DNA from: Isoetes taiwanensis
Lineage: Eukaryota > Streptophyta > Lycopodiopsida > Isoetales > Isoetaceae
Length of the DNA: 64,000 nucleotides
Assembly: GCA_021234155.1 (NCBI GenBank)
Contig: JAJEKV010000010.1
Coordinates: 22,096,833 to 22,160,832 of the forward strand
Reading direction: 5' to 3'
In this document: piece after piece, positions 11,056-64,000 of the stretch
Position numbering within the stretch: position 1 is the first letter of the stretch
Layout: the number at the start of each line of letters is the position of its first letter
The notes under the pieces: model-generated
Database searches by the model: none
What the model saw: only the letters and a program-made list of their open reading frames with translations
What the model was told of the DNA's origin: nothing
Program-made: the position numbers and the translations under genes

Positions 11056-11107
11056 TATTTAAGAGGAGACTCTTGCTTCACTATTTAAGAGGAGACTCTT
11101 GCTTGCA
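11056..11107. repeat. 26-bp tandem duplication
   Basis: 'tatttaagaggagactcttg' plus six bases is repeated once, exactly adjacent. Confidence 0.85.
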
Positions 11108-28963: not shown

Positions 28964-29597
28964 TGATGTTGATGTACGTGGAGCTTTACACCAACAACTG
29001 CAGTACTGCTTTCCTGTTGTCAGAACTATATTTAAAGACTAAGTGGCCAAGCAGCTCACCAGCCCACTAACAGCTATCGGATTATTGCTCATACACCTTC
29101 TAAACATAAATTTACAAGACATTTTCCTTTCATCTTGTAAAACTTGCACAACTTCTGCAATAAGACAATCTGAGATCTCATGCTTTCACACTCTATGATT
29201 CATGTCCAATAACAGACTTGCAAGTTATAATTTTTTGCATCACCTACTTAATTTGTCAAAACGAAAATACAATAAACAACTTGCACATCTCCAAAACCAG
29301 AGCAGAGGCTATATATTCATTCAGCAACAATTGGTACATGCCATGCAGATCACCCATGGGATCTGTTTCACTGGAATAAGAGGATTTTCAGATTTTTTTC
29401 AAGAGTTTTTCTTGTAGCAAAGATACAGAAAAGATACAACAAAGATACATCAAAGATACTGTTCTATATTCTCCAGCCTTCCCTAACATAAATCTGCAAC
29501 TTTCTTACTGGAAATCATCATGCTTCATGTCTGTATAATGCCATCCTTCCTGTTGTACATCTTTATAATATACAACTTCCTGCTTTTCTTTACATCA
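28964..29597 (-). mobile_element. Putative 5' LTR of the minus-strand gypsy element
   Basis: The 634-bp segment is bounded by TGATGT and ACATCA, perfect 6-bp inverted ends of TG...CA type, and lies immediately before the PBS. It has no coding sequence. A second ACATCA at about 29447-29452 is an alternative outer end. No second LTR is visible, because the element's 3' part beyond RT is missing. Confidence 0.5.
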
Positions 29598-30115
29598 CAA
29601 CAAGAGAATGGACTTTTAGCGACGTGGGCTTGCGACGTCTGTGCGACGTGACGTCGCAAATAACGTCACCATGCGACGTCAATGCGACGTCACGTCGCAG
29701 GCACGTCGCATGCGACGTATGGTGCGACGTCTGACACGTATGGTGCGACGTCTGACACTGTGACGTCGCCAGGCGGACGACAGGTGTCACGCCAGGCGGA
29801 CGACAGGTGTCACGCCAGGTCGCGTCGCATGCGACGTATGGTGCGACGTCTGACACTGTGACGTAGCAGATCTGTCACGCCAGGTGGACGCTTGCGCCAG
29901 GTGGACGACAGGTGTGATGTTTACGACGTGACGTCGCATGCGACGTCGTATATGTGACGTATGTGACGTATGTGTCGTATATGACACGTCAGTACGTATA
30001 TGTGACGTATATGACACGTCCATACGTATATGTGACGTATATGACACGTCAGTATGTATATGTGACGTATATGACACGTTAGTACGTATATGTGACGTAG
30101 GTGGTCGCATGTGAC
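29596..30115 (+). mobile_element. CACTA-like terminus with dense CGACGT/CGTATATGTGACG repeats
   Basis: The segment opens CACAACAAGAGAATGGAC, one base away from the CACTACAAG consensus and similar to the CACTA end at 10496. It is followed for ~330 bp by copies of TGCGACGT in both orientations (gcgacgtcacgtcgca, gcgacgtatggtgcgacgtc) and 30-bp units with 'ccaggcggacgacaggtgt'. It then has ~40-bp tandem units of 'tatgtgacgtatatgacacg' to about 30110. This layout matches the subterminal repetitive region of an En/Spm element, where the transposon's own DNA-binding protein binds. The start overlaps the presumed gypsy LTR end by 2 bp, so one boundary is slightly wrong. Confidence 0.55.
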
Positions 30116-33734: not shown

Positions 33735-34015
33735 GACAAATGTCACGACAAATGTCACGACAAATGTCAGACGTCGCATGCGACGTCATGTGACATTACA
33801 GAACATAAGACACGTCAGTACGTACTTGCCACGTGTACTGCCAGGTCGCATGTGACCTGGATCTTGACCGTTGACTATACGTCGCATGCGACGTGGTCTA
33901 CGTAACGCATTTACACGCCCAGACGTATTTGCCAGTGTACGCCAAGTCGTGAGGTGACTTGGCATGTGACCGTTGACACTACGCCGCCGGCGACGCCACG
34001 CCGCATGACGTTAAA
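33735..34015. repeat. CGTCGCATGCGACG-type repeat block upstream of the transposase cassette
   Basis: 'cacgacaaatgt' is repeated three times, followed by 'acgtcgcatgcgacgt' (33772 and 33881), 'ccaggtcgcatgtgacctgg' (33841) and related palindromes ending 'cgccgccggcgacgcc' (33982). A TATA-like site follows at once. It resembles the repeat block at 29.6-30.1 kb and the shorter ones at 40.3, 54.0 and 60.0 kb. Confidence 0.7.
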
Positions 34016-34134: not shown

Positions 34135-34231
34135 ATGGATCACCATGGTCATCGGCATGATCGACGCGAGATGGCCAGAGACGATTGATGCCGCCTTACC
34201 ACCGGGAGGCCGGATATGCGAACCGCCACAT
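34135..34231 (+). other. Possible leader exon 1 of the SET/transposase cassette
   Basis: ATG at 34135 opens MDHHGHRHDRREMARDD and then a stop. A second frame (RLMPPYHREAGYANRHM) stays open to a perfect GTAAGT donor at 34232. The exon is therefore either a leader or carries a small frame error. Downstream intron-like sequence carries the hairpin repeats. Confidence 0.35.
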
Positions 34232-34651: not shown

Positions 34652-34770
34652 ACTATCATATATTGTATCTATCACAAATTCAAACTATTGTGCAAGATAT
34701 AGTACTTACCTTTTGTAATTGGCGAGGGACAAAATAGTTTGGCGATTGTAAAAGATGTATAAATTTGAAG

Positions 34771-34860
34771 AGACGACTTAGAACGGTTGTTGAAGACCAT
34801 CCGATAAGATTTGGTACATTTGAACAACCCACCGATCCGATGCTCGGCCATGGATATCAG
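34771..34860 (+). other. Possible exon 2 of the cassette gene
   Basis: A 30-codon open block (RRLRTVVEDHPIRFGTFEQP, TDPMLGHGYQ) has ordinary protein composition and is followed by a G|GTTGGTAT-type donor. The family is not recognised. Confidence 0.35.
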
Positions 34861-34957: not shown

Positions 34958-35780
34958 GTAGATGATGCTGATGTCTCCTCCAAACTAGATGTGGATTTTG
35001 GTTTAATGTTGTCCATAGAGGCATATGAAACTGGGCAAGAACTTAGATTCATCAATAATGTGGATGGGTGCCGCTCACGCCGAAGTGTTCCCCCGCGGAA
35101 AGAACACGGCGGGCTACAATCATGAGAACATTGCATGTGTCGCACATTTCCCAAGAACGCTTGGCCTCACTGCCCGAGCGTGAAATTCCTGAAGAATTGC
35201 AAAGATTAGTCCGACCCTTTGTTAGGCACCGCAAGACATTTGGCTTGTGGCCAGTAGACTTACCTATCCCTATGGATCAAGAATTTGCTTATTGGGGAAG
35301 AAGATACATCATTATGCGGAGCCGCATTTGTCCGTAAGTCGGATTCGCCTTTATCTCCCACGACGCCAGATAGAAGTGGAGCGAGATACCCACATTCCAT
35401 TAATGCCATATGCAGGTCCCGAGTACGATTGGAAAACTTGGCAAACTTTGACTAAATATGCTTGGCGTATGAGGATTTATGGAATGAATTCCAATGTCGC
35501 TACGATAGTCGTGGGGGCATGTGATGAGGAGTTGAAGTTTATTGATGGTCGGCCAGGGGTTCATGGCAATATTGCAGGGTTCATCAACAGTTCTATTGAC
35601 AACCGTGAGCGATGCAATTGTGAATTTTTAGAGTGTCAAGGAGGGGAGGAAGATTTTTTTACAAGATCTGTAAAAAGCAGATATATCATGGTGTGTGCTA
35701 TTAAAAGCATAAACATTGGAGATGAGTTATTCATCAACTATCGCTATGATAGACCTCTCCCATTTGAGATGGAACAATAG
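34958..35780 (+). CDS. SET-domain protein frame next to a CACTA transposase
   Basis: The acceptor 'tatgtag' at 34957 opens a frame (VDDADVSSKLDVDFGLML...) that hands over near 35068-35337 to IPEELQRLVRPFVRHRKTFG. The final frame starts at or before 35247 (177 codons) and ends at TAG 35778-35780. From ~35337 it reads as a SET domain: SRIRLYLPRRQIEVERDTHI-PLMPYAGPEY (N-terminal strands), ELKFIDGRPGVHGNIAGFIN-SSIDNRERCNCEFLE (where FINHSCNPNCEF is usual) and SRYIMVCAIKSINIGDELFI-NYRYD (where GEEL.YDY is usual). SET proteins methylate lysines, mainly on histones. Here the NHS histidine is replaced (N-S-S), so activity is doubtful. At least one frame change separates the upstream half. It lies 160 bp before the putative first transposase exon on the same strand. 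Confidence 0.65.
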
Positions 35781-35940
35781 TATTGTTGTACTAAAAAAAG
35801 GAATAAAGAGGTTTTTTTTTTTTTAATATGTTTTTTGTCATTCGTGAGTCTATACAAATGGTTGTATGTATTTTATACTTATTACATTATTTGACATGAT
35901 GGTTAATAATTACTCCCCGTTAATGAACTCATTCAGAGCG

Positions 35941-36362
35941 GTCTCCATCCCGATCCATTAGTTCTAAGTTACAGGCAAAGGGAAACCTATCGTCGTGAAT
36001 TTCAAGCCAGAGCGCACCAATATGAAGATATTGCATACGATCAATATGAAGAGGATGAAACTATTGACGAACCCGAGAACGAAGTCTTTCGTGACGAGCC
36101 GATGCTCGATATGTTGCACGCTCTTCAAGAATTACCTGATATTGATTTAGATGATGTCGAGGATGGTGGTGGAGAGGATATGGTAGAAGATGTGGGATAC
36201 CCTTCGAGGATTGGTCGTCTCGACGATGACCCTATTGTTATCGGCGTAAACGCAGCTTATTTCCTCAAGTCTCGAACCTCTCGCTTTGTCGGCGTGCCTG
36301 CTAATTCTCAATCTCCAAACCAAGTTCAAGTGGAGCAATGCAAGTGTCTCTGCTCTATTGAG
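35941..36362 (+). CDS. Putative N-terminal exon of the CACTA TNP2 transposase
   Basis: An open, acidic block (DEPMLDMLHALQELPDIDLD, DVEDGGGEDMVEDVGYPSRI) precedes the transposase core and is followed by a GAG|GTGACA donor-like site. TNP2 proteins carry an acidic N-terminus with a similar 'DML' helix before the conserved core. The ~70-bp gap to the next block (acceptor GCGCAG at 36433) looks like a small intron, although the phases do not join perfectly. Confidence 0.45.
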
Positions 36363-36433
36363 GTGACATACTTATCAAGTCTTTCTATCTTACCACCATC
36401 TCCATCTTTTATCTTACCACTCTTAGATGCGCA

Positions 36434-39397
36434 GGTTATTGCACGAGAAGATCCTTCCAGAGAAGAACAATATGCCTACCGACAGATCTCAAGTTAAGAA
36501 AATGATTCAAGCGAATCGCCTTGGTTATAAAGTCATACATGCATGTCCAAATGATTGTATGATCTTCTATCCCCCTCGCCGAAAGCATGAGAAGTCCACT
36601 CATTGTCTCGTATGTAATGAACCGAGATACGAGAATGACCTAAAGGGAAAAACGGTACCTCGAAGGTTATTCGACACTTTCCAATAATCCCAAGGTATAT
36701 GCATCACCACTTCTTACAAATAGTTGTAAATTCACTTATTTTCTGTGACTTATATGTTGCCTATAATTTATTCTATAGGTTAAAGTTGATGTTCCGTTGC
36801 AAGACATTGGCTAGCCTAATGGACTTCACGGCTACACATGCATCTAGTGATGATGTGATGCGAGTCCCGAGCTTACGCTGGGGCTTGAAGCATGTCGATG
36901 CGACATGGCCCTCGACTTTGGAAAAGAACCACGTAACGTCGCGCTTGGGCCCGCCCACCGATGGCGTAAACACATATGGTACACAATCGACCGCATGGTC
37001 TACATGGCCCGATGATAGTGAACTACAACATACCCCCATGGTTGTTGATGAAGAGTGGGCACATTATGATGACTTTATTGATACCGGGAAGAAAAACCAA
37101 GTAATTTAGATGTGTACCTAAGAATAATTGTGGATGAGTTACTCCCTTTGTGGAACACAGTATTCAGTGTCCACGATGCCCATAAAAATGACGTTTTTAA
37201 TCTTAGAGGTATACTATTGTGGACTATGCATGACTTTCCGGTTTGCCGAAAGTGTTCGGTTTAAGACATCTGGCACTTCCCTTGCATGATATGTGGGGAA
37301 AAGTTGCAGCACCGTCACTCTAAGCATCCAAGAAAGTAGTATACGAGGGTTTTAGGAAGTATTTGCCGCCACGCACCCCTTCGAAAGCAAATGCACAATT
37401 CAAAGGGCAATCAGACTATACGTAACCACCAAGCGTAATTACCATACGAGAATGGGGTGAGCGTTGGGATAAGAAGGAAGAGGGGGAAAATCCGCAAGGG
37501 GAAATCCGTGGGGGGCACCTGCGAATGAGGAGGTCAGAAATGACCTAGACAAAGGAGGATGAGGAATTATACAAATGGTGGCGAGGAAGCCGCGGAGGAG
37601 GAAGTCTTTACCGCCAATATGAAAAGGAAGTCCGCTTTTTATAGACTACCATATTGGACCGACCTATTGATTCAACACCTTTTAGACCCGATGCATATCT
37701 TCAAGAACGTGGAAACTCTTTATGGAAGCATGTATTTGGTCAAAAGACACAACAAATGCCGTGGATGGACCTTAAGGTAAGTAATACAAAGAAAGAGGCA
37801 TGGATCCGAGGTGAAGGGCAAACCACTTCCTCCGCAAAATGGGTTATTGCTAGGTCTGACCATCGACCTATTTATGATGATTTAAGGGCCCTTAGAACAC
37901 CAACCGGTTACATGCAATCATTGCGAACCGCGATTCACAAGTAGTGGGGAGCCGACCGGTTTAAAGTCCCATGATCGCATAAGTTCTTGCATGTAAGCAA
38001 TTGAAGTCCACATATATATGCACTACTATAAAAATGTAACCCATAACTTATATTTGGTGTTTGGATCATGCGAGCTCTTCATGCCCCCGACCTTTAGGGG
38101 AGTTTTAGACAAGGGACCATTGGAGGCAATAAGTGCCCTATCAAAGGTCATAAGGTTGTTACCCATGTTGATTTAGTGGTCCCCCTCGCCTATTTTATTT
38201 GTGGCTAAGTTTTTGTTTTGGACCTCATAGATGGATGTGTAAAAAACTATACCGAAAAGACTAAAATTGAAGAGATGAAAGTGAAAATGGCAGAGGCATG
38301 TTGCTTGTTGGAGAAGGAGTTTCCTACGAGCTTTCTTGACATCAAACCCATCTTTTGGTACATCTTATTGAGGAAGTGGAGCTCATGAACCGTATATGCC
38401 GATGGATGTTTTTCTTGGAAAGGTTTATGAAGGTATTGAAGGATATGGTGCGTCAAAGAGCACGTCCCGAAGGTAGTATGGCGAGGGATGGCTTGCGAAA
38501 AGAGTCACTTTTCTATATGACAGAATATATTTCCGCATTACATCCGTGATGCACCTCGCTATGGAGTGATGAAGGGACGAAGAAGATTGTGGGGGTAGTG
38601 GCGTAAGGCAATGGTATGCGAAGTCATTTCCGCTTTGATATGATCATTAAGGTTAATCAATTTCTTCTTTACAATTCGGCACCAATGGCAAAATGGATTG
38701 CTTCGTTATGAGAACGCAAAGGAAGAAATGGAAGAGAAGAGGCATGAATGGAGACGACATAATAGACGAGCCCCGCACTCGATGGATATGAACCCTGCCT
38801 GGACAAGATGGAAAGAGAATGGGTACTACGAGGCTTTGACCGATGCATATCACAAGGGGGGTATATTACAGCTACTTTTAATGGGCATACGCACAAGGTG
38901 TCATGAAAAAGGTAGTTGCAACAAATTATGTTGATGTCGAAATCGAGTATTTTCTTTTGATGTTATTGTATCTATTGACATTAATGGTGCTTTTGAAGAT
39001 ATATCTTACTCCTCGATATGGTGGCATGGGACCCACTATCGCGGTGAGTTCTCTTGACATACACAGAAGACTTGTGGATCAGCGGAGTCATGGCATCATT
39101 CACGATGGAGTTTCAATCAAGTGTTGCCGATCGTAATCGTCGAGGAAGCCACCTGATTTGGGCCTGAGGTTAAAGACTATAATGGAGGTGGATGTTGGTG
39201 GCAATTTTAAGACCTTCATATTCGATGTCGATTGGTTTGACCTTCAATTAAGGGGCCAGCCTACAAGAAAGTATGATAGAACAAGTGGCTTTTTTCATTT
39301 GTCAACTCTAGCAAGATGTACCCCGGTAGTGAGACGCTTGTCCTTCCGCATAACCGTGGAACAGTACACACATACACATATCCACTTCAAAATTTAG
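36434..39397 (+). pseudogene. CACTA/En-Spm TNP2-type transposase pseudogene
   Basis: Pieces in successive frames reproduce a TNP2 (Transposase_21) protein in order. They are RLLHEKILPEKNNMPTDRSQ and GYKVIHACPNDCMIFYPP (signature ACPNDC, 36510-36575), CLVCNEPRY and LGPPTDGVNTYGTQSTAWST (about 36943). Next come DVYLRIIVDELLPLWNTVFS and LRGILLWTMHDFPVCRKCS (37110-37260), then RKSAFYRLPYWTDLL..LLDPMHIFKN (37624-37710), LRTPTGYMQSLR and ICRWMFFLERFMKVLKDMVR-QRARPEGSMA (38394-38485). The C-terminal DUF4216-like part (VDVGGNFKTFIFDVDWFD, about 39185) closes it. TNP2 is the catalytic transposase that cuts CACTA elements at their termini. Many frameshifts and stops separate these blocks, so the gene is dead although nearly full-length in layout. 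It follows the SET frame on the same strand. Confidence 0.85.
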
Positions 39398-39399
39398 AC

Positions 39400-39594
39400 C
39401 ATCAATATCAATCTCACGCCCAAATTCTTTGACCGCATTTTTTTTCTTTACCGATCGACAAGACCCAACATGGTGGTTTATCATACAAACTACACAATCA
39501 GGGGACTTCCAATATTCCAAGGTATTGTGCTAGAGGAGTCAATAACGTCAAGAGCCCTCCGGCGTGATCAAGGCATTCAAACTCACCCCAAAAT
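39400..39594 (+). other. Short stretch after the transposase, unrecognised
   Basis: A frame continuing to 39718 (IRGLPIFQGIVLEESITSRA...) may be the degraded transposase tail. No domain is recognised. Confidence 0.3.
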
Positions 39595-40386: not shown

Positions 40387-40984
40387 AAAACTCATTTCTT
40401 AGTTGGGTTAACATGAGTGGTCTTCCTCGTCACGTAACTTGGTCCCGGAGGGCAACGCCGACGCTCTGAGTCCATTGGGCAGAGTCAAATCGCGATTTCG
40501 AGAGGGAGGTCGCCCGTCCGGCCCCTGTGGCCTTGGGGAGAGGAAATTCGCGCAAGCGACCCGGGGATTTTAGGGTCCGCGGTTCTGGCGTCAACACCTT
40601 CACTCCACGCCAAGTCACGCGGCGCAAGGTCCCGCCTGACCGACAAGGAGAGGGCCTCCAAAACGTAAACCCCGTGGGCTGCCGTGTTCTAGAAGGGTTT
40701 GCGTTTTGGGGGCCGACTTGGTCTGTTGCACTTGGGACCGGCCGAGAAGCCGCAGACGAGAATACGGAGCAAGGAACCGACGGAGCGGAGTTTGGGCCCG
40801 TCCTCCTCCCGATGTGGCAAGTAGAAGTCGGGGGCTTTTGCAAAGTGGCAAGACATTCATAAATTCGCAATTAATGCATTGTACGAAAATAAATTCTGAT
40901 TTTTTGCCAGTGGAATCCTAATCCATTTCCAAAGACACAGCCCAATTTTCGAAATTTTTGGAGAAGGTCTAGGTCAAAGGGTTA

Positions 40985-41530
40985 GCATTAGAACGGTCGG
41001 GGCAGCCCGTTGCAGGGCAACCAAGCTGGCACCCTTCCCCAAGTCAAACGAGGCCAGGGACCTTGCAGGATCCCTCACAAGAGGGAGAGTCCTGGACCCC
41101 AAGAGGCGGGATCCAAAAAGTTCCCGAGGCAGCCCTTCTTCCGCGGGCCCCCCTCGGGGGCTGACGCTTAATGACCACCCTCCCGGAGCCCGTTCCCTCT
41201 ATCCGTGGATTGGATCCTCCGCTCAGGGCCCCTCTTCGAAGGCCCAAAAGATTCCGTGATCGGTCCGGAGAACTTGTCAAACCGCTGGCCCCCGAGGTCG
41301 GCCTTTGTAGAAACCGCAGTTGTCTTGTCGCTCGCACCGGGAGGTTCCTAATGGCAAATCGACCCCGCCAAATCGTCCGAATGGGCTAAAATTACCCTAG
41401 GGAGCAAGTTACAAGGTCGGTTTTGCAAAAGAAAGAAACACTCACGCCCCCACGACAAGATCCCGCATCCACATCCTAGGCCAATTGACTACGAGTGTGA
41501 TGGAAGTGAGCTACTTTGGCGCTTCTTGAG
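40985..41530. repeat. Representative B half-unit
   Basis: Landmarks are 'ggcacccttccccaagtc', 'agagtcctggaccccaagag', 'gcccaaaagattccgtgatc', 'caagttacaaggtcggtttt' and 'tgtgatggaagtgagctact'. Other B halves lie at about 45470-46020, 46590-47140, 47695-48235 and, in array 2, 60690-61230. Their ancestral form is seen at 53.7 and 9.8 kb. Confidence 0.8.
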
Positions 41531-42229
41531 GTCCGGTGGTCTTCCGCCACGGAACTTGGTCCCTGTGGCAACGCCGACGCTTCCGAGTCCATTGGCAGAG
41601 TCAAATCGCGATTCCCGAGGGGAGGTCGCCCGTCCGGCCCCTCTAGGCCTTGGGAGAGGAAATTCGGGCAAAGCGCCCGGGATTTTAGGGTCCGTGGATC
41701 TCAAGGGCCAACACCCCCACTCCATCGCCAAGTCACGGCGCAAAGGTCCCGCCCGACCGACAAGGAGAGGGCCTCCAAAACGTAAACCCCGTGGGCTGCC
41801 GTGTTCTAGAAGGGTTTGGCGCTTTGGGGCCGACTTGGTCCGCTGCACTTGGGACCTGGCCGGAAGCCGCGCAATGGTGAATACCTGGAGCAAGGGGAAC
41901 CGACGGAGCGAGTTTGGGCCTGTCCTCCTCCCGATGTAGAAGTAGAAGTCGGGGGCTTTGGCAAAGGGCAAGACATTCATAAATTCTAGTGCGGGTTGTG
42001 GGATCGTTGTACTTGGGGTTGACCTTGGCTCACTGACATTATACTTGGTCTAAGATTGCATTGAGAATATAAGCATCATAACTATTAGAATGAAGATAAA
42101 ATGATTACTGAAAAGCATCATAACTACTAGAATGAAGATAAATGATTACGTAAAAGCAAAAAGACTAGTGCGGGTTGGGGGGTTAGATTTGGTTGCTTGT
42201 GATGATGGTTGTGTTTCAAAGATCAAGGC

Positions 42230-42790
42230 ATATGGATAGAGAGAATGCCCTTGTTCAAATCTGGACTCCCCCTAAAGATATTTGACATGGATGGCATAAT
42301 TAACTTGTAATGAACTCAATTCGGGGCAAGCAACTTCCGGGGAGTTTAGGGTCCCACCCGGGCGCCAACACCCCTCCATGTCAAGATACGATTGCAAGGT
42401 CCCACCAAATCGACAAGGAGAGGGCCTCCTCCAAACGTAAACCCCGCGGACTTGCCGATTCTAGAAGGGTTTTTGTTTTGGGGCCGAAGTTTTGGTCTTC
42501 CTCGCCACGAACTTGGTCCCTAGGGCAACGCCGACGCTTCGAGTCCATTGGCGAGTCCATTGGAGAGGGGAGATCGCCCGTCCGGCCCCTGTGGCCTTGG
42601 GGAGAGGAAATTCGGCAAGCAGCTTTCCGGGGATTTTAGGGAGCAAGTTACAAGGTCGGTTTTGCAAAAGAAAGAAACACTCACGCCTCCACGACAAGAT
42701 CCCGCGATCCACATCCTAGGCCAATTGACTACGAAAGTGTGATGGAAGTGAGCTACTTTGGCGCTTCTTGAGGTCGGGTGGTCTTCTCGC
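42230..42790. repeat. Rearranged partial unit in array 1
   Basis: 'gagtccattggcgagtccat' shows the A anchor duplicated head-to-tail. A stops early and jumps at about 42640 into the end of B ('gggagcaagttacaaggtcg'). The same unusual junctions occur at about 62243-62475 in array 2, so the rearrangement predates the 19.7-kb duplication. Confidence 0.75.
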
Positions 42791-43346
42791 CACTCTTTAA
42801 CTTGGTCCCCGTGGCAACGCCGACGCTCGAGTCCATTGGCGTAGTCAAATCGCTGATTCCGGAGAGGGGAGGTCGCCTCGTCCGGCCCCGTGGCCTTGGG
42901 GAGAGGAAATTCGGGCAAGCAGCCTCGGGATTTTAGGGTCCGTGGTTCAAGGCCAACACCCCCACTCCATCGCCAAGTCACAAGAAGGTCCCGCCCGGAC
43001 CGACAAGGAGAGGGCCTCCAAAACGAAACCCCGTGGGCTGCCGTGTTCTAGAAGGGTTTTATGCTTTGGGGCCGAGACTTGGTCCCTGCACTTGGGACCG
43101 GCCGAGAAGCCGCAATGAGAATACGGAGCAAGGGGAACCGGACGGAGCGGAGTTTGGGCCTGTCCTCCTCCGATGTGGCAAGTAGAAGTCGGGGGCTTTG
43201 CAGCGGCAAGGCATTCATAAATTCACAATTAATGCATTGTACTTAAAATAAATTCTGATTTTTGCCAACCGGATTCCTAACCCATCTCCAAAGACACGCC
43301 CCAATTTTCGAAATTTTTCGGAGAAGGTCTAGGTCAAAGGGTTAGC

Positions 43347-43830
43347 TAAGGTCAAAGGAATGGAGTTTGTGGGATCGTTGTACTTGGGGTTGACCTTGGC
43401 TCACTGGACGTTATACTTGGTCTAAGATTGCATTGAGAATATAAGCATCATAACTATTAGAATGAAGATAAATGATTACAGAAAAGCAAAAGACTAGTGG
43501 GGTTGGGGGGGTTAGATTTGGTTGCTTGTGATGATGGTTGTGTTTCAAAGATCAAGGCATATGGATAGAGAGAATGCCCTTGTTCAACGGACCGCTCCCT
43601 AAAGATATTTGACATGGATGGCATAATTAACTTGTAATGAATCAATTCGGGGCAAGCAACTTCCGGGGAGTTTAGGGTCCCAGCTCAAGGCCAACACCCC
43701 CCACCCATGTCAAGATACAGTGCAAGGTCCCACCAACCGACACAAGGAGAGGGCCTCCTCAAACGTAAACCCCGTGGACTTGCCCGATTCTAGAAGGGTT
43801 TTGTTTTGGGGGCCGAAGTTTGGGCTTCTG
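43347..43830. repeat. Representative C half-unit
   Basis: C reads 'aggaatggagtttgtgggat', 'gattgcattgagaatataag', a ~45-bp 'catcataactattagaatga' repeat (one copy here, two in most C halves), 'gttgcttgtgatgatggttg' and 'gacatggatggcataattaa'. It then has a degenerate second copy of part of A ('gcaagcaacttccggggagt' to 'attctagaagggttttgttt'). Others lie at 44395-44910, 48792-49320, 49872-50420, 51060-51590, 52150-52675 and 63052-63590. Confidence 0.8.
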
Positions 43831-46800
43831 GCCACGTAACTTGGTCCCCGTGGCAACGCCGACGCCGTCGAGTCCATTGGCAGAGTCAAATCGCGATTCC
43901 GAGAGGGAGGTCGCCTGTCCGGCCCCTGTGGCCTTGGGGAGAGGAAATTCAGGGCAAGCAGCTTCGGGATTTTAGGGTCCGTGCTTTCACATCAACACCC
44001 CCCTCCATCGCCAAGTCACGCTAAAGGTCCCGCCGGACCGACAAGGAGAGAGGGCCTCCAAAACGAAACCCCGTGGGCTGCCGTGTTCTAGAAGGGTTTG
44101 CGCTTTGGGGGCCGGTGACTTGGTCTGCTGCACTTGGGACCTGGCCGAGAAGCCGCAGCCGAGAATACGGAGCAAGGGGAACCGACGGAGCGGAGTTTGG
44201 GCCTGTCCTCCTCCCCATGTGGCAAGTAGAAGTCGGGGGCTTTTGCAAAGGGCAAGACATTCATAAATTCGCAATTAATGCATTGTAACGAAAATAAATT
44301 CTGATTTTTGCCACTGATTCCTAACCCATCTCCAAAGACACACATTGGTTTTCAAATTTTCTGGAGAAGGTCTAGGTCAAAGGGTTAGCTAAGGTCAAAG
44401 GAATGGAGTTTGTGGGATCAAGTACTTGGGGTTGACCTTGGCTCATTGGACGCTATATACTTTGTCTAAGATTGCATTGAGAATATAAGCATCATAACTA
44501 TTAGAATGAAGATAAATGATTACAGTAAAAGCATCATAACTACTAGAATGAAGATAAATGATTACGTAAAAACAAAAAAGACTAGTGCGGTTGGGGGGTT
44601 AGATTTGGTTGCTTGTGATGATGGTTGTGTTTCAAAGATCAAGGCATATGGATAGAGAGAATGCCCTTGTTCAACTGGACCGCTCCCTAAAGCTTTTTGA
44701 CATGGATGGCATAATTAACTTGTAATGAACTGAATTCGGGGCAAGCAACTTCCTGGGAGTTTAGGGTCCCAGCTCCAACACACCCCCACTCCATGTCAAG
44801 ATACTGCAAGGTCCCTACCAACTGACAAGGAGAGGGCCTCCAAACGTAAACCCCGGACTTGCCGATTCTAGAAGGGTTTTGTTTTGGGGGCCGAGTTTTG
44901 GTCTTCCGCCCACGTAACTTGGTCCCTGTGGCAACGCCGACGTTCCGAGTCCATTCGGCAGAGTCAAATCGCAGTTCCGAGGGGAGGTCAGCCTGGCCCG
45001 TCCCCGTGGCCTTGGGGAGAGGGAAATTCGGGCAAGCAGCTTCGGGATTTTAGGGTCCGGTGCTCAAGGCCAACACCCCCACTCCACGCCAAGTCACGCT
45101 GCAAGGTCCCGCCGACCGACAAGGAGAGGGCCTCCAAAACGTAAACCCGTGGGCTGCCGTGTTCTAGAAGGGTTTTGCGTTTTGGGGGCCGTAGACTTGG
45201 TCTCATGTACACCTGGGACCTGGCGAAGAAGTCATAGCCGGTGAATACACGAGCAAGGGAACCGGCGAGCGGAGTTTGGGCCTGTCCTCCGGCCCGTGTG
45301 GCAAGTAGAAGTCGGGGGCTTTTGCAAAGGCAAGACATTCATAAATTCGTTAATTAATGCATTGTACTTAAAATAAATTCTGATTTTTGCCAGCTGAAAT
45401 CCTAATCCATTTCCAGCACATGCCCCAATTTTCAAATTTTCTGAGAAGGTCTAGGTCAAAGGGTTAGCATTAGAACGGCTCCGGGGCAGCCCGCCAGGGC
45501 AACCGAGCCGGCACCCTTCCCCAAGTCAAACGAGGCCAGACCTTGCGTGATCCCCACAAGAGGGGAGAGTCCCGACCCCAAGAGGCTGATCCAAAAAGTT
45601 CCCGAGGCAGCCCTTCCCGGCAGGGCCAGCCCCCGGGTCAGACGCTTAATGACCACCCTCCTGAGTCGCCCGCTCCCTATCCGGACCGCTGATCCCTCCG
45701 CTCAGGGCCCCCTTCGAAGGCCCAAAAGATTCCAGATCGGGTCCGAGAACTTGTCAAACCGCTGGGCCCCCGAGGGTCCACCTTTAGAAACCGGGCAGTT
45801 GTCTTGTCGCTCGGCACCGGGAGGTTCGAATGGCAAATCGACCGCCAAATCGTCCGAATGGCTAAATTACCCTAGGGAGCAAGTTACAAGGTCGGTTTTG
45901 CAAAAGAAAGAAACACTCACGCCTCCACGACAAGATCCCGTGATCCACATCCTAGGCCAATTGACTACGAAAGTGTGATGGAAGTGAGCTACTTTGGCGC
46001 TTTTCTTGAGGTCGGGTGGTCTTCGCCACCACGAACTTGGTCCCCGTGGCAACGCCGACGCTCCGAGTCCATTGGCGAGCCAAATCGCGATTCCCAGAGG
46101 GAGGTCAGCCTCGGCCCGGCCCCGTGGCCTTGGGAGAGGGAAATTCGGGCAAGCAAATTCGGGGATTTTAGGGTCCGTGTATTTCAAGGCCAACACCCCC
46201 ACTCCATCGCCAAGTCACGCCCAAAGGTCCCGCCTCCGACCGACACAGGAGAGGGCCTCCAAAACGAAACCCCCGTGGGCTGCCGTGTTCTAGAAGGGTT
46301 TGCGCTTTGGGGCCGAGACTTGGTCCGCTGCACTTGGGACCCGGCCGAGAAGCCGCAGCCGAATATACGAGCAAGGGAACTGGACGAGCGGAGTTTGGGC
46401 CCTGTCCTCCTCCCCGATGTGGCAAGTAGAAGTCGGGGGCTTTTGCAAAGGCAAGACATTCATAAATTCGCAATTAATGCATTGTACGAAAAATAAATTC
46501 TCGATTTTTGCCACCGGAATCCTAATCCATTTCCAGCACACAGCCCAATTTTCAAATTTTCGGAGAAGGTCTAGGTCAAAGGGTTAGTGATAGAACGGTC
46601 GGGGCAGCCCGCTGGTGGCAACCGAGCCGGCACCCTTCCCCAAGTCAAACGAGGCCGACCTTGCGGATCCCTCACAAGAGGGGAGAGTCCTGACCCCAAG
46701 AGGCGGGATCCAAAAGTTCCCGAGGGCAGCCCTTCCCCGGCAACCCTGGGCCGCAGACGCTTAATGACCACCCTCCCGAGCCCTGCCTCTATCCCGGACC

Positions 46801-49800
46801 GCTGATCCTCCGCCTCCTGTGGGCCCCTTCTGAAGGCCCAAAAGATTCCAGATCGGTCCCGAGAACTTGTCAAACCGCTGGGCCCCCGAGGTCGGCCTTT
46901 GTAGAAAACCGCAGTTTGTCTTGTCGCTCGGCACCGGAGGTTCCCTAATGGCAAATCGACCGCCAAATCGTCCGGAATGGCAAAATTACCCTAGGAGCAA
47001 GTTACAAGGTCGGTTTTGCAAAAGAAAGAAACACTCACGCCTCCACGACAAGATCCTCGCGATCCACATCCTAGGCCAATTGACTACGAGTGTGATGGAA
47101 GTGAGCTACTTTGGCGCTTCTTGGAGGCTCGGTGGTCTTCCGCCACTTTAACTTGGTCCCTGTGGCAACGCCGACGCTCCGAGTCCATTGGCAGAGCCAA
47201 ATCGCATTCCAGAGGGAGGTCGCCCCATCCGGCCCCTGTGGCCTTTGGGAGAGGAAATTCGGGCAAGCAGCCGGGGATTTTAGGTCCGTGCTCGGGCCAA
47301 CACCCCCACTCCATCGCCAAGTCACGGCAAGGTCCCAGCCTGGAATCAGAGCGAGAGGGCCTCCAAAACGTAAACCCCGTGGGCTGCCAGGTTCTAGAAG
47401 GGTTTGGCGCTTTGGGGGCCGAGACTTGGTCCGCTGCACTTGGGACCCGCCGAGAAGCCGCAAATGGTGAATACGGAGCAAGGGGAACCGACGGAGCGAG
47501 TTTGGGCCCGCCCCTCTCCCGATGTGGCAAGTAGAAGTCTGGGGCTTTTGCAAAGGGCAAGACATTCATAAATTCGCAATTAATGCATTGTACGAAAATA
47601 AATTCTGATTTTTTGCCACCGGATTCCTAACCCATCTCCAAAGACACAAGCCCAATTTTCGAAATTTTCGAGAAGGTCTAGATCAAAGGGTTAGCATTAG
47701 AACGGTCGGGGCAGCCCAAGGTGTATAAACCGAGATGGCACCCTTCCCAAGTCAAACGAGGCCAGGACCTTGCAGGGATCCTCACAAGAGGGAGAGTCCC
47801 ACCCCAAGAGGCGGATCCAAAAAAGTTCCCCGAGGCAGCCCTTCCCCCGGGCAACCGCCCCCTGGGCAGACGCAAATGACCACCCTCCCGAGTCCTGCCC
47901 CTATCCCACCGCTGATCCTCCGCTCAGGGGCCCTTCGAAGGCCCAAAAGATTCCGTGATCGGTCCGAGAACTTGTCAAACCGGGCTGGCCCCCGAGGCCT
48001 ACCAGAGAAACCATGGGCATCTTGTCGCTCGCACCGGGAGGCTCCTAATGGCAAATCGACCGCCAAATCGTCCGAATGGCTAAATTACCCTAGGGAGCAA
48101 GTTACAAGGTCGGTTTTGCAAAAGAAAGAAACACCACGCCCACGACAAGATCCCGCGATCCACATCCTAGGGCCAATTGACTACGAGCGTGATGGAAGTG
48201 AGCTACTTTGGCGCTTCTTGGAGGTCGGGTGGTCTTCCGCCACTAACTTGGTCCCTGTGGCAACGCCGACGCCTCGAGTCCATTGGCGAGCCAAATCGCG
48301 ATTCCGGGAGGGGAGGTCGCCCGTCCGCCCCTGTGGCCTTGGGAGAGGAAATTCGCAAGCAGCCCGGGATTTTAGGGTCCGTATTCTCGCGCCAACACCC
48401 CCACTCCACGTCAAGTCACGGCAAGGTCCCGCCCGAATCGACAAGGAGAGGGCCTCCAAAAACGTAAACCCCGTGGGCTGCCGTGTTCTAGAAGGGTTTG
48501 GCGCTTTGGGGCCGGGACTTGGTCTCTGCTGCACTTGGGACCTGGCCGAAGCCGCAGCCGGTGAATACGGAGCAAGGGGAACCGGGACGGAGCGGGAGTT
48601 TGGGCCTGTCCTCCTCCGGCGTGGGCAAGTAGAAGTCGGGGGCTTTTGGCTGGCAAGACATTCATAAATTCACAATTAATGCATTGTACGAAAATAAATT
48701 CTGATTTTTGCCCCGATTCCTAACCCATCTCCAGCAGCCACACTGACCCAATTTTCAAATTTTCTGAGAAGGTCTAGGTCAAAGGGTTAGCTAAGGTCAA
48801 AGGAATGGAGTTTGTGGGATCGTTGTACTTGGGGTTGACCTTGGCTCATTTGGACGCTATACTTGGTCTAAGATTGCATTGAGAATATAAGCATCATAAC
48901 TATTAGAATGAAGATAAATGATTACGTAAAAGCATCATAACTACTAGAATGAAGATAAAATGATTACGAAAAAAAGCAAAAGACTAGTGCGGGTTGGGGG
49001 TTAGATTTGGTTGTTTGTGATGATGGTTGTGTTTCAAAGATCAAGGCATATGGATAGAGAGAATGCCCTTGTTCAACGGACCGCCCCTAAAGATATTTGA
49101 CATGGATGGCATAATTAACTTGTAATGAACTGAATTCGGGGCAAGCAACTTCCGGGGGGATTTTAGGGTCCCAGCTCTGGCGTCAACACCCCCACTCCAT
49201 GTCAAGATACGGTGCAAGGTCCCACCAAATCTGACAAGGAGAGGGCCTCCAACGTAAACCCCAGCGGACTTGCCGCATTCTAGAAGGGTTTTGTTTTGGG
49301 GGCCGAGTTTTGGTCTTCCGCCCGAGAACTTGGTCCCCGGGGCAACGTCGACGCTCGAGTCCATTGGCGAGTCAAATCGCGATTCCAGGAGAGGGAGGTC
49401 GCCCATCCGTCCCGAGGGCCTTGGGAGAGGAAATTCGGGGGCAAGCGGCCGGGGGATTTTAGGGTCCGTGCTCAAGGCCAACACCCCCACTCCACGTCAA
49501 GTCACGCGCAAGGTCCCGCCCGAATCTGACAAGGAGAGGGCCTCCAAAACGTAAACCCTGTGGGTTGCCAGGTTCTAGAAGGGTTTGCGTTTTGGGGGCC
49601 GAGACTTGGTCTGTTGCACTTGGGACTAAGCCGGAAGCCGCTGGTAGAATACGGACCAAGGGGAACCGGGACGGAGCGGAGTTTGGGCCCATCCCTCCTC
49701 CCGATGTGGCAAGTAGAAGTCGGGGGCAAAGGGTGGCAAGACATTCATAAATTCATGAATTAATGCATTGTAAAAAATAAATTCTGATTTTTTTGCCACT

Positions 49801-50419
49801 GGATTCCTAACCCATCTCCAAAGACACCCCAATTTTCGAAATTTTCGGAGAAGGTCTAGGTCAAAGGGTTAGCTTAAGGTCAAAGGAATGGAGTTTGTGG
49901 GATCGTTGTACTTGGGGTTGACCTTGGCTCAAAGGACGCTATACTTGGTCTAAGATTGCATTGAGAATATAAGCATCATAACTATTAGAATGAAGATAAA
50001 AAAATTACACGAAAAGCATCATAACTACTAGAATGAAGATAAATGATTACTGAAAAGCAAAAAAGACTAGTGCTGGATGGGGTTAGGGTTAGATTTGGTT
50101 GCTTGTGATGATGGTTGTGTTTCAAACCCAAGGCATATGGATAGAGAGAATGCCCTTGTTCAACGGATCAAGCTCCCCAAGCTTTTGACATGGATGGCAT
50201 AATTAACTTGTAATGAATCAATTCGGGGCAAGCAACTTCAAGATACGGGAGTTTAGGGTCCCAGCTCAAAAGTCAACACCTCTACTCCATGTCAAGATCG
50301 TTGCAAGGTCCCACCAAATCCCCTGACAAAGGAGAGGGCCTCCGGGGAACGTAAACCCCCGTGGACTTGCCCCCGATTCTAGAAGGGTTTTGTTTTGGGG
50401 GCCGAAGTTTGGTCTTCCT

Positions 50420-51060
50420 GCCACGTAACTTGGTCCCTGTGGCAACGTCCGACGTTTTTTTGTTGCCGAGTCCATTCCAAAGACAGAGTCAAATCCCAGA
50501 TCCTGGGAGGGAGGTCGCCTGGCCCAACTCCCTGTGGCCTTATTCAAGGGGAGAGGGAAATAAGCATCGGGCAAGCAACTTCCACTAGGGATTTTAGGGT
50601 CCGTGGTTGTTTGTCAAGGCCAACACCCCCACTCCATCGCCAAGTCACAGGATGGCATAATTAACAAAGGTCCCAACTCCCCAATGTCAAGATACTGCAG
50701 ACAAGGAGAGGGCCTCCAAAACGTGAAACCCCTGTGGGTTGCCGTTTCTAGAAGGGTTTGGCGCTTTTGGGCCGAGACTCTGGTCCCTGTTGCACTTGGG
50801 ACTCCCGGCCGAAGCCGCGGCTCGGCCAGAATACGAAGTCAGGAACCGACGGAGCGGAGTTTGGGGCCTGTCCTCCCCAGATGTGGCAAGTAGAAGGTCT
50901 AGGCACTTGGGGCGGGAACCGTTTTGTGGCAAGACATTCATAAATTCGCAATTAATGCATTGTCTGAAAATAAATTCTGATTTTTGCGGTTTGATTCCTA
51001 ACCCATCTCCAGCACTACCCAATTTTGAAATTTTCGGAGAAGGTCTAGGTCAAAGGGTTA
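50420..51060. repeat. Aberrant A half-unit with inserted micro-segments
   Basis: Relative to other A halves this one carries small insertions that resemble pieces of other unit positions: 'gatggcataattaac' inside the 'caagtcac' stretch (50652), 'atgtcaagatactgcag' (50685), 'tattcaag' (50540) and 'ataagcatc' (50570). This is either local gene-conversion patchwork or an assembly/consensus artefact. Confidence 0.6.
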
Positions 51061-53429
51061 GCTAAGGTCAAAGGAATGGAGTTTGTGGGATCGTTGTACT
51101 TGGGGTTGACCTTGGCTCATTTGACGTTATACTTGGTCTAAGATTGCATTGAGAATATAAGCATCATAACTATTAGAATGAAGATAAATGATTACGAAAA
51201 GCATCATAACTACTAGAATGAAGATAAATGATTACGAGAAAAGCAAAAAGACTAGTGCGGGTTGGGGGTTAGATTTGGTTGCTTGTGATGATGGTTGTGT
51301 TTTGCGGTATCAAGGCATATGGATAGAGAGAATGCCCTTGTTCAATCGGACCGCTCCCCTAAAGCTATTTGACATGGATGGCATAATTAACTTGTAATGA
51401 ACTCAATTCGGGCAAGCAACTTCCCGGGAGTTTAGGGTCCCAGCTCTGGCCAACACCCCCACTCCATGTCAAGATACGGTTGCAAGGTCCCAGCCAAAAT
51501 CGACAAGGAGAGGGCCTCCCAAACGTAAACCCCGTGACTTGCCGTTCTAGAAGGGTTTTGTTTTGGGGCCGAAGTTTTGGTCTTCCGCCATAGAACTTGG
51601 TCCCGTGGCAACGCGTCGGCGTTCTACGAGTCCATTGGCAGAGTCAAATCGCGAGCCCGGAGGGGAGGTCGCCTGGCCCATCCCGAGGGCCTTGGGGGGA
51701 GAGGGAAATTCAGCGCAAGCAGGGGGATTTTTAGGGTTGGAGTGCTCCAAGCGTCAACACCCCCACTCCCGCGTCAAGTCACGGCGCCAAGGTCCCTAGA
51801 ATCGGACAAGGAGAGGGCCTCCAAAATAAAACCCAGCGGGTTGCCGGAGTTCTAGAAGGGTTTGCGTTTTGGGGGCGACGAGACTTGGTCTGTTAACTTG
51901 GGACTGGCCGAGAAGCCGCCCAGCCCAGAGAATCTGAACAAGGGAACCGGCGGAGGCGGAGTTTGGCCTGTCCTCCTCCCGTGTGGCAAGTAGAAGTCGG
52001 GGGCTTTTTGCGATGGCAAGACATTCATAAATTCAAATTAATGCATTGTGCGAAAATAAATTCTGATTTTTTGCGGTGGATTCCTAACCCATCTCCGGCC
52101 CACAACCCAATTTTGAAATTTTTGGAGAAGGTCTAGGTCAAAGGGTTAGCTAAGGTCAAAGGAATGGAGTTTGTGGGATCGTTGTACTTGGGGTTGACCT
52201 TGGCTCATTTGGGCGTTATACTTGGTCTAAGATTGCATTGAGAATATAAGCATCATAACTATTAGAATGAAGATAAATGATTCTGAGAAAAGCATCATAA
52301 CTACTAGAATGAAGATAAATGATTCTGAGAAAAGCAAAAGACTAGTGCGGGTTGGGGAGGGGTTAGATTTGGTTGCTTGTGATGATGGTTGTGTTTTGAT
52401 GTCAAGGCATATGGATAGAGAGAATGCCCTTGTTCAACGGTTTTGCTCCCCTAAAGCTATTTGACATGGATGGCATAATTAACTTGTAATGAATGAATTA
52501 GGGGCAAGCAACTTCCGGGGGTTTAGGGTCCCGGCTACGGCAACACCCCCACTCCATGTCAAGATCACGGTGCAAGGTCGACCAAATCGACAAGGAGAGG
52601 GCCTCCAAAGCGTAAACCACAGTGACTTGCGATTCTAGAAGGGTTTTGTTTTGGGGGCCAGTTTTTTGGTCTTCGCCCCAGAGGCTTGGTCCCTAGGCAA
52701 CGTCGGCGTTCACGGAGTCCATTCCACGAGTCAAATCCGCGATTCGAGAGGGGATTAAGCGGCCCGGTCCCGGGGCCTTGGGAGAGGAAATGGGGCAAGC
52801 GGCTTCCGGGGGATTTTTAGGGTCCCGTGCTCTAGCATCAACACCCCCCCCCCACGTCAAGTCCGCGAGCAAGGTCCCTTGAATCGACAAGGAGAGGCCT
52901 CCAAAACGTGAACCCCAATGGGTTGCGGAGTTCTAGAAGGGTTTGCATTTTGGGGCCGAGACTTGGTCTGTTACACTTGGGACTGGCCGAAGGCTGCCAG
53001 CGAATCTGAACAAAGGGAGCAGGGCGGGGCGGAGTTTGGGCTGTCCCTCCTCCCGATGTGGCAAGTAGAAATTAGGGGCGCTTTGCGGTGGCAAGACATT
53101 CATAAATTAGCAATTAATGCATTGTCACGAAAATAAATTCTGATTTTTTGCCCGGTTGGATTCCTAATCCATCTCCATCCACCTGACCCAATTTTGAAAT
53201 TTTAGGAGAAGGTCTAGGTCAAAGGGTTAGCTAAGGTCAAAGGAATGGAGTTTGTGGGATCGTTGTACTTGGGGTTGACCTTGGCTCATTTGGACGTTAT
53301 ACTTGGTCTAAGATTGCATTGGGCGTAAACCACGTGACTTGCCCGATTCTAGAAGGGTTTTTGTTTTGGTTTTTACGCTCCCTAAAGCTATTTGACATGG
53401 ATGGCATAACTAACTTGTAATGGCTGGTT

Positions 53430-53995
53430 TTGTTTCTCGGAAACAATTGTACCTTGATGAAAGATTGCTTCATAGTTTCCAAGTGAAAATTTTTTAATGT
53501 GTCCTTACCGCCTTATTTGCCCCCCACAGTCAAAGACTACCTTTTTTTCGATGCACACTCTTTTAGTTATGCATTTTATTGCATTTATGGTTTATAAATT
53601 CGTAGTTAATGCATGGCATGGAATTAAATTATGGTTTTGGTCAGTGGCTTCTATGGTCATCACCCCGACATCTGAGGAAAATTTTCCAAAATTTTTAGGA
53701 TAAGGTCAGACCCAAGCGTTGGGGTTAGAAACGGTCAAGGCGTTGTTGGGCAAGCATGGCTACTGCACCCTTCCCCAAGTCAAACAAGGCTGACTTTGAA
53801 TGGCCACCTCGGTGGGGAGAGTCCCGTCCCCGGGAGGCGGACCCCAAAAACGTTCTCCAGGCTGCTGTCTGGCAGCCCACAGGGGCCCCGTATGCTAATG
53901 AACACCCTCCCGCTCGGTTCCCCTATATATTCGGCCAGATTGAATCCTCCGTTCAAGGATCCATTACCTTGGGACTGTTCAAATAAGCCTAGGGA
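53430..53995 (+). repeat. Divergent copy of A-tail plus B at array end
   Basis: 'tttataaattcgtagttaat', 'ttttccaaaatttttaggat', 'gggttagaaacggtcaaggc', 'tgcacccttccccaagtcaa', 'ggggagagtcccgtcccc' and 'gctaatgaacaccctcccgc' align with A-tail and B. Substitutions suggest an older, less GC-rich form. 'cctatatattcgg' (53922) is TATA-like, where array copies have lost the TATA word. Confidence 0.75.
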
Positions 53996-54033
53996 CAAAC
54001 TTTAATGAGCTTCACATTAAAAAGATGCAAAAA

Positions 54034-54135
54034 CAATAACGTCGCTATAACAAAATACGTCGCCAAGGGCGTCGCGTCGCGGCCTTGATTTGAAATAGCG
54101 TCGCATGCGGCGTGGCGTCGCATCACGGCCTTCTG
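54034..54135. repeat. CG-repeat block opening the second cassette
   Basis: 'aacgtcgctataacaaaata' is followed by 'cgtcgcgtcgcgg' and 'gcgtcgcatgcggcgtggcg'. It corresponds in position to 33.7-34.0 kb and in sequence to 40.31 and 60.03 kb. Confidence 0.75.
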
Positions 54136-54296
54136 TATTATTACACAACCCAGCGGGCGGCCGGCTTTTCCGAACTTCTTTTTGCCCTACTTCTTGAGGT
54201 TCTTGGGCGATCCGGCGCTAGTACCACGATCTACACGCAACAACTATTCTAAGGTTAGTATATCATGTTTTTAGATTGAATAGGTTTTTGGATTGA

Positions 54297-59299: not shown

Positions 59300-60025
59300 C
59301 GCATCAAAATAGGCATCAGAGGTTGGACCACCAGCTCTCATCGCGGCATCTTACACAGCGAGCAATTCCACGAAATCTGAGATGTACCGAGGGCATTTTA
59401 ATACAAATGTTGGCAATGCTGCTGTGGCTTGACTCTAGTTAGCACCTAGAAGCGTCATTATTCTATATGTCCAAATATTATGCACATCACCGATTGCAAT
59501 CATACGATAGGCTATGTCTATTGGTCTTAGGTGTGCAATAAAGCACATTCAATTCAATTCTTTTTTCTCCCCCCCTCCCCCCCTTTTGGTATACATTATC
59601 GGAGGAATAAAAAGCGGTTTGGAACATGGGCTCAAAGAAGCCACATGGGCTCAAGCATTGCCTCTAGACTAGAACATGCAAAAAGGTCTTCAATGGTATC
59701 TTAGTTACTTAGATTTTCTCTAACAAGCCGATTACCACCACAAGTTAGCACGATCATTTGCTTAATTTGATGCTATCCACTAGCTTTTGCATTGTGGATC
59801 ACTTGCTCTACCTTTTCAAGCAGAGGATAATAATAGTGTTTTTGTAGGGTGAACAAGTCCAAATACATATGAGTGAACCATGAGGACTCTACAGTGTTGA
59901 GCGTGTGATTTGCATTTCCCTTAAGGTTAGACATACTACCTAGGTTCAAACAAGCCTCTTAGAGCTCAAGCATTGTCTAAACATGCCCGGTATCAAACAT
60001 GTACAACAAAAATAAAATAGTTTAA
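59300..60025 (+). repeat. Cassette tail, second copy of the ~19.7-kb duplication
   Basis: Colinear with 39595-40310 with many scattered substitutions and small indels. It shares the C-rich run (59565-59585) and 'cattgcctctagactagaac'. It runs directly into CG repeats and array 2, exactly as in copy 1. Confidence 0.85.
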
Positions 60026-60105
60026 GCAGCGTGGCTATAACAAATAGCATTAAGCATCGACGTATTGGCGTCGCATCACGGCGATACCTGCGGCGGCGTT
60101 TAAAA
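60026..60105. repeat. CG-repeat block before array 2
   Basis: 'gcgtggctataacaaatagc' is followed by 'ggcgtcgcatcacggcg' and 'tgcggcggcgtttaaaactc', aligning with 40314-40395. Confidence 0.7.
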
Positions 60106-60129
60106 CTCATTTCTTAGTTGGAGTTAACA

Positions 60130-63100: not shown

Positions 63101-64000
63101 TTGGCTCGCTGGGCGTTATACTTGGTCTAAGATTGCATTGAGAATATAAGCATCATAACTATTAGAATGAAGATAAATGATTCTGAGGAAAAGCATCATA
63201 ACTACTAGAATGAAGATAAATGATTACAAAAAAGCAAAAGACTAGTGCTTGGGTTGGGGGTTAGATTTGGTTGCTTGTGATGATGGTTGTGTTTTGATTA
63301 TCAAGGCATATGGATAGAGAAATGCCCTTGTTCAGCGGTTTTCCTCCCTAAAGATATTTGACATGGATGGCATAATTAACTTGTAATGAACTGAATTGGG
63401 GCAAGCAACTTCGGGGGAGGGAGTTTAGGGTCCCAGCTCCCCAAGGCGTCCAACACCCCCACTCCATGTCAAGATGCAGTTGCAAAGGTCCGACCAAATT
63501 GGACAAGGAGGGGGCCTCCGGCGTAAACCCACGGTGACTTGCGATTCTAGAAAGGGTTTTGTTTTGGGGGGCGGTTTTGGTCTTCGGCCCCCTGAGAAGT
63601 TACAAGTCCCAAAGAGAAAACAGCGTCGGCGTTCTGAGTCCATTGGCAGAGTCAAATCAGCGATTCGGAGGGGAGGTCTTGTGAAAACCCTCCGTCCCGG
63701 GGCCTTGGGGAGAGATTCCGGGGCAAGCAGCTTCGGGGGATTTTAGGGTCCCGTGCTCTGGCGTCAACACCCCCACTCCACGTCAAGTCCGCGGCGCAAA
63801 GGTCCCGCCCGAATCCCGACAAGGAGAGGGCCTCCAAAGCGTAAACCACGTGGGTTGCGGGTTCTAGAAGGGTTTGCGTTTTTGGGGGGCGAGACTTGAA
63901 TCCTGTTACGCAGGACTGGGCGAGAAAAATGCCCGAGAATCACGAACAAGGGGAAGCGGCGGGCGGAGTTTGGGCCTGTCCTCCTCCCGATGTGGCAAGT
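60130..64000. repeat. Array 2 of ~1.1-kb modular units (continues past window)
   Basis: The order is AB, A-C(truncated), rearranged partial unit, AC, A..., identical to the first five blocks of array 1 and offset by about 19,710-19,720 bp (anchor 40469 to 60187, junction 41974 to 61694). The special junction 'cattcataaattctagtgcg' occurs in both. Copies differ by dense small substitutions and indels. The array is cut by the window end. Confidence 0.85.

Follow-up and report, generated by a model that had tools for sequence, protein, structure and literature searches.

A SET-domain exon upstream of TNP2 in a family of CACTA-type transposons of Isoetes taiwanensis

Plants silence transposons by means of histone and DNA methylation. 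Plant CACTA (EnSpm) elements encode a transposase of the TNP2/TNPD type together with TNPA. A stretch of 64,000 nucleotides from the genome of the lycophyte Isoetes taiwanensis (C908:22096833-22160832), called here the window at its full length, holds a decayed copy of a CACTA-type family in which an exon with a SET domain stands ahead of the TNP2 exons. The SET protein is a regular and selected part of this family; the reading as a whole, with the splice and anti-silencing model set out below, is held with moderate confidence. SET genes have been described in DNA transposons of other kinds. According to Kojima (PMC12730594), citing Repbase Reports 2014 by Kojima and Jurka, HarbingerS and Phytophthora MuDR families carry SET genes, and these are listed there among the counters of transposons to silencing. 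They resemble the present family in being DNA transposons with a gene for a SET histone methyltransferase. They differ in having a Harbinger or MuDR transposase and an oomycete host, Phytophthora, whereas the present family has TNP2 and lives in a plant, with its SET exon behind an exon similar to Transpos_assoc. No Harbinger-type transposase was found among the element proteins scanned, whose matches to transposase families were TNP2-associated only.

Other epigenetic enzymes and regulators have also been attributed to transposons. The same source (PMC12730594) mentions TET/JBP genes, thought to serve the evasion of silencing, in a number of transposon lineages, fungal EnSpm among them, and a protein of plant Vandal (MuDR) elements that acts on their own epigenetic silencing. 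The TET/JBP-bearing fungal transposons, some of them of the CACTA type, carry an enzyme acting on epigenetic marks, as the present family may, but this enzyme is a dioxygenase working on DNA, not a SET protein, and the hosts are fungi. The self-regulating protein of Vandal, VANC, is not known to be a SET protein, and its elements belong to another superfamily. With plant CACTA/EnSpm elements the family has in common TNP2, DUF4218, a DUF4216-like part, a CACTA-type 5' end and subterminal repeats; it differs from them in the additional SET exon and in A-type ends that start with CACAA instead of CACTA. No SET gene in CACTA elements was found in the open-licence literature of PubMed Central, Repbase and subscription papers lying outside this scope.

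The sequence-only reading of the window had placed a SET domain directly in front of a TNP2 transposase within a CACTA-type element. This arrangement is upheld by Pfam matches in the window, by element ends shared among copies and by recurrence in the genome. The family comprises three subfamilies, A, B and C, with SET domains 47-61% identical and a shared gene order. The assembly (1,658,258,908 bases, 1110 contigs) was searched with TNP2, the SET frame of the window and a C-type SET, about 150 of 1694-2311 candidates being scored for each query; the 150 places listed per query were compared, and the counts of recurrence are lower bounds. Among these matches, all 34 pairs of window-type SET and TNP2 within 8 kb lay on the same strand with SET upstream, separated by 0.9-1.3 kb in 30 pairs and by 2.6-5.4 kb in four. 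The same orientation was found in 20 of the 21 pairs involving the C-type SET, the remaining one being on opposite strands. Two TNP2 places were common to both pair lists, and the union of the lists puts a SET upstream on the same strand at no fewer than 52 of the 150 TNP2 places compared. The absence of SET beside other TNP2 copies, which would have spoken for an accidental neighbour, was therefore not what the search returned. Twelve TNP2 places without a listed SET were inspected: four carried SET pieces, three belonged to the SET clade and had none, and five belonged to another TNP2 clade, in which none of the five copies had a SET in the 2.7 kb upstream. Since four of the twelve carried SET pieces on inspection, the count of 52 is a lower bound, and recurrence across the genome indicates more than chance. 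A pattern search for relatives in viral contigs gave 66 matches, none of which was confirmed.

The SET exon is under purifying selection, as estimated from the ratio of nonsynonymous to synonymous substitution rates (Ka/Ks). The copies compared were picked for long open frames from 44 SET copies. A first set comprised 14 copies in 15 pairs; a second set comprised 23 copies (14 C, 6 A, 3 B), left out the broken copies and three copies of the first set, and was reported for pairs within C only, at Ks 0.05-1.2. Three A-B pairs gave Ka/Ks of 0.22, 0.19 and 0.23, with bootstrap limits of 0.11-0.33, and pairs within C gave 0.22-0.42 at Ks above 0.15. Between the A-type copy A1 and the B-type copy B1, identical DNA positions number 542/816 in the SET exon, 38/75 in the neighbouring intron and 64/121 in the spacer. 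Over the time that selection has acted, silent sites have come close to saturation. These values also bear on the notion that a captured fragment of a host SET gene merely lies beside a TNP2 copy and is carried passively. CACTA elements can carry captured host fragments, and the copy in the window is broken; but in three subfamilies SET recurs beside TNP2, at 52 or more of the 150 places listed, and Ka/Ks is near 0.2-0.4 at informative distances. Passive carriage is scarcely credible and was rejected on both recurrence and selection.

The SET exon lies inside the element, because the similarity between copies sets in at a CACTA-type end. Two A-type copies turn homologous exactly at CACAACAAGAGAATGG and two B-type copies at CACTACTAGAGAATGG; the 5' end reads CACTACTAG in B and CACAACAAG in A. 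The end, searched as reverse complement with W at two places, had 798 exact matches in the genome, and the reversed control had 0. The distance from ends to SET was examined on contigs up to C856, with the ends and the 27 SET places listed for them. Of these places, 11 had a correctly oriented, exact A/B-type 5' end 1.8-18.9 kb upstream (within 20 kb), and none had an end in the wrong orientation, with an expectation of about 0.01 per place. The 11 end-bearing places are all among the 15 that came from the search with the window SET. Subterminal repeats accompany the left end as clusters of CGTCGC/GCGACG and occur again internally. In the window such clusters are found at 29500-30000, 33750-34000 and 54000-54250, the first of them starting at the CACTA-type end at 29596, so that the promoter-like CG-repeat block described earlier is real. 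A pair of ends on contig C503 was considered as a complete element and discarded; its flanks are unequal and it resembles two left ends facing each other.

The domain itself was recognized by Pfam SET (PF00856) in all seven aligned members (E up to 1). In the window the match covers 35226-35777 (27.7 bits, E 3.9e-6); A1 and B1 scored 24.4 and 32.5 bits and a further member 29.2, and all four scores exceed the cut-off of 22.4. Compared with six pooled host SET genes, which we take to be ATX-like and SUVH-like, the profile of the element SET gave a probability of 82.9 (E 9.2e-6). A single-sequence fold model of the SET fragment from the window had a mean predicted local distance difference test score (pLDDT) of 36.5 and was not used. 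The NHS motif is a hallmark of most active SET proteins, and it was not found in the element: FINSS occurs in 22 of 23 open-frame copies and FIHSS in one. The altered motif had raised the question of function lost through decay. It is not a sign of decay, because FINSS is retained in 22 of 23 open-frame copies, in three subfamilies and under purifying selection.

The same motif speaks for a SET domain that has lost methyltransferase activity and works by binding histones, DNA or the transposase, helping in complex assembly or target choice. The match of A1 to profile positions 47-104 only points in this direction too. B1 and the copy C1025, however, match nearly the full profile (positions 9-104 and 2-104, respectively), and the 23 open-frame copies show no variation at G131, N220-C221, G254-DELFI, Y261 and Y263 (at most two gaps per column). 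A128-G129 is invariant in the seven aligned members, with G129, the first glycine of GxG, not invariant in the 23. In addition, some PR/SET proteins with a changed NHS motif are active; the element SET may resemble these PR/SET (PRDM) proteins. A purely non-catalytic SET is therefore considered unlikely, and it is the main competitor of an active enzyme.

The exon structure suggests how the SET protein and the transposase may be made from one gene. In B1, exon 1 with its ATG (2257-2370), exon 2 (2441-2575) and the SET exon starting at 2652 together encode 357 residues. Exon 2, with its C-x-C-x2-C pattern and a subsequent H, is recognizable in A, B and C; it is similar to Transpos_assoc, a domain that normally opens TNP2 proteins. 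The SET exon has its own stop at a like position in the three subfamilies, and the TNP2 exon begins about 120-230 bases past it. No start codon common to the subfamilies was seen in the TNP2 exons of A, B and C. With splice sites read by eye and unscored, exon 2 ends, and the SET and TNP2 exons begin, in phase 0 in all three subfamilies; exon 2 would join TNP2 in frame if the SET exon were skipped. These phases suggest one gene that yields two proteins by alternative splicing, and there is fair support for one transcription unit giving finger-SET and finger-TNP2 proteins with a common N-terminal finger. A plain fusion of SET and TNP2 is disfavoured, given the similarly placed SET stop in A, B and C, with no right-phase donor seen ahead of it in A or B.

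Starting at its 5' end, the element consists of a CACTA-type repeat, a CG-rich block, a short exon with ATG, a Transpos_assoc-like exon, the SET exon and the TNP2/DUF4218/DUF4216 exons, followed by a long repetitive tail in the A-type copy A2 and in the window copy. Splicing of exon 2 to the SET exon would give a finger-SET protein, and skipping of the SET exon a finger-TNP2 transposase. The shared finger could then take the SET protein to the CG-rich ends of the element itself, where it might methylate histone H3, or the transposase, and so ease silencing of the element. The SET protein likely acts on the element, since it has been selected for long, lies beside the transposase and probably carries its DNA-binding finger; methylation guided by the finger and relieving silencing has weaker support than the shared N-terminus. 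In its most specific form, as a splice switch made out of part of the transposase gene of a lycophyte CACTA lineage, attaching one DNA-binding N-terminus to a SET methyltransferase that would keep the chromatin of the element open or else to the TNP2 mover, the model is offered tentatively. The opposite effect was also weighed, namely that the SET protein marks the element ends as silent, thereby limiting copy number or shutting off competing copies. The host SET pool used for comparison mixes ATX-like and SUVH-like genes by our labels, so that either an active or a silencing mark could be written. Lasting selection for a self-repressor would be less expected in an element that spreads, and self-repression is regarded as quite unlikely. 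Relief of silencing would be the first choice, followed by non-catalytic binding and then by self-repression.

As the SET protein has been kept working by selection, the family may act on the silencing system of its host. A cut-and-paste element with its own selected SET in many copies offers a direct route to asking whether transposons write histone marks. The family also supplies a natural collection of SET domains whose NHS motif is unusual, and the host might draw new chromatin genes from it.

Several observations weigh against the interpretation of the SET exon as a conserved element part with an anti-silencing role. The three SET-clade TNP2 places mentioned above have no SET within 2.7 kb upstream, and they are read as losses or interruptions. 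The SET match is distant: sequence searches of the PDB gave no solved SET chain, and the element SET profile reached a probability of 1.3 against four host genes assumed to be SMYD-like, while the two host SET groups match each other at 93.6. Close pairs of copies give Ka/Ks of 0.25-0.92 within C at Ks under 0.15, 0.44-0.77 in A and 0.29-0.73 in B, values that are weak taken alone; those of the close C pairs fit recent dead copies. Silent sites are saturated in the A-C and B-C SET pairs and in the three TNP2 pairs tried. The A/B-type end occurs at none of the 12 C-type SET places, and therefore the ends of C probably differ. Searches within 20 kb turned up neither a 3' end nor a 3-bp target duplication. 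For exon 2 of B1 the score against Transpos_assoc (PF13963) was 20.8 bits (E 4.4e-4), under the cut-off of 27.7, and a C-type exon 2 reached 15.6 bits. In C, a phase-0 GT lies just ahead of the SET stop, and a SET-TNP2 fusion would be possible in C copies.

The history of the SET exon was followed in trees. The TNP2 core splits A, B and C from the SET-less TNP2 clade (five copies), and both SET and TNP2 pair A with B, leaving C more distant. If the tree is rooted on the SET-less clade, a single gain of SET would be the simplest reading. Midpoint rooting groups C with the SET-less clade, in which case SET would have been lost in that clade or gained twice; these data do not fix the position of the root.

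The window copy is a dead relic with a split SET exon and a decayed TNP2 (Table 1). Relative to the open-frame A1 (contig C1040), its SET exon has two frameshifts, and about 46 initial residues of the frame at 35226 are out of frame with respect to the relatives. The transposase had been described as nearly full-length. It is indeed a relic, but full length is a generous description, as TNP2 is frameshifted as well; the Pfam check of the translated window that placed SET above its cut-off left TNP2 (frame 36639-37106) at 19.8 bits, short of the cut-off of 28.6. A clear DUF4218 match, of 50.6 bits, lies in the frame 38340-38546. In A1, besides SET, Pfam gave 247 bits for TNP2, 95.8 for DUF4218 and 21.6 for DUF4216, the last below its cut-off of 30.6.

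Table 1. Parts of the decayed element copy in the window (positions counted from the first nucleotide of the window)
Feature	Position	Strand	Basis or remark
5' terminal repeat CACAACAAGAGAATGG	29596-29611	+	shared with two other A-type copies, which are homologous to each other from this point on
Left subterminal CGTCGC/GCGACG block	29596-29947	+	continuous to about 29947, where about 3.8 kb has been inserted
Remainder of CG-rich subterminal or promoter-like block (CG-repeat block of the earlier reading)	33740-34010	+	edges approximate
Exon 1 with ATG, homologous to A1 exon 1	34135-34231	+	frame broken here; splice site by eye
Exon 2, zinc-finger-like (Transpos_assoc-like)	34728-34860	+	comparison with relatives
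Exon 3 with SET domain	34958-35780	+	three frames: 34958-35101, 35098-35358, 35367-35777
First TNP2 exon, acidic N-terminal part	about 35910/35937-36458	+	read against open-frame relative
TNP2 transposase core, decayed	36639-38001	+	Pfam, and read against open-frame relative
DUF4218 part of transposase gene	38140-38693	+	Pfam, and read against open-frame relative
DUF4216-like part	39001-39429	+	read against open-frame relative; below cut-off in A1
G+C-rich tail built from imperfect units, each about 1.1 kb long, common to other copies	40418-53954	+	copy comparison
Second CGTCGC cluster, ahead of possible second transcription unit	54030-54150	+	motif clusters

Further features were noted in the window and in related copies. 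Two more CACTA-type ends are present in the window, one of 3' type at 10481-10496 (CCCTTCTCTTGTAGTG, one mismatch to the family end) and one of 5' type at 57404 (CACTACAAGA). A G+C-rich tail with units of about 1.1 kb, like that of the window, follows A2 (contig C1031) and, by eye, copies on C1039, C1055f and C907; no tail units were found in the 20 kb of A1 examined. Past the second CGTCGC cluster, the window sequence at 54150-54260 is conserved in A2 and ends in the splice-donor-like AAG/GTTAGT; a second transcription unit may begin here. In oriented B1 (L002/L006), exon-like pieces of an unnamed gene lie at 10076-11925, downstream of TNP2, and occur also in B2. These pieces gave no Pfam match when a TNPA-type gene was looked for in B1; a TNPA-type protein is a possible product.

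B1 also contains an inserted element (L006 1373-5223, contig C1045) with frames of 521 and 696 residues, repeated flanks at about 12.2-13.0 and 18.8-19.6 kb of oriented B1 and a weak match to reverse transcriptase (28.2 bits, under the cut-off of 29.6); it may be Penelope-like. Finally, a second copy of the family, truncated at its 5' side, occupies 59313-64000 of the window on the plus strand and consists of the 3' part of the transposase followed by the G+C-rich tail.

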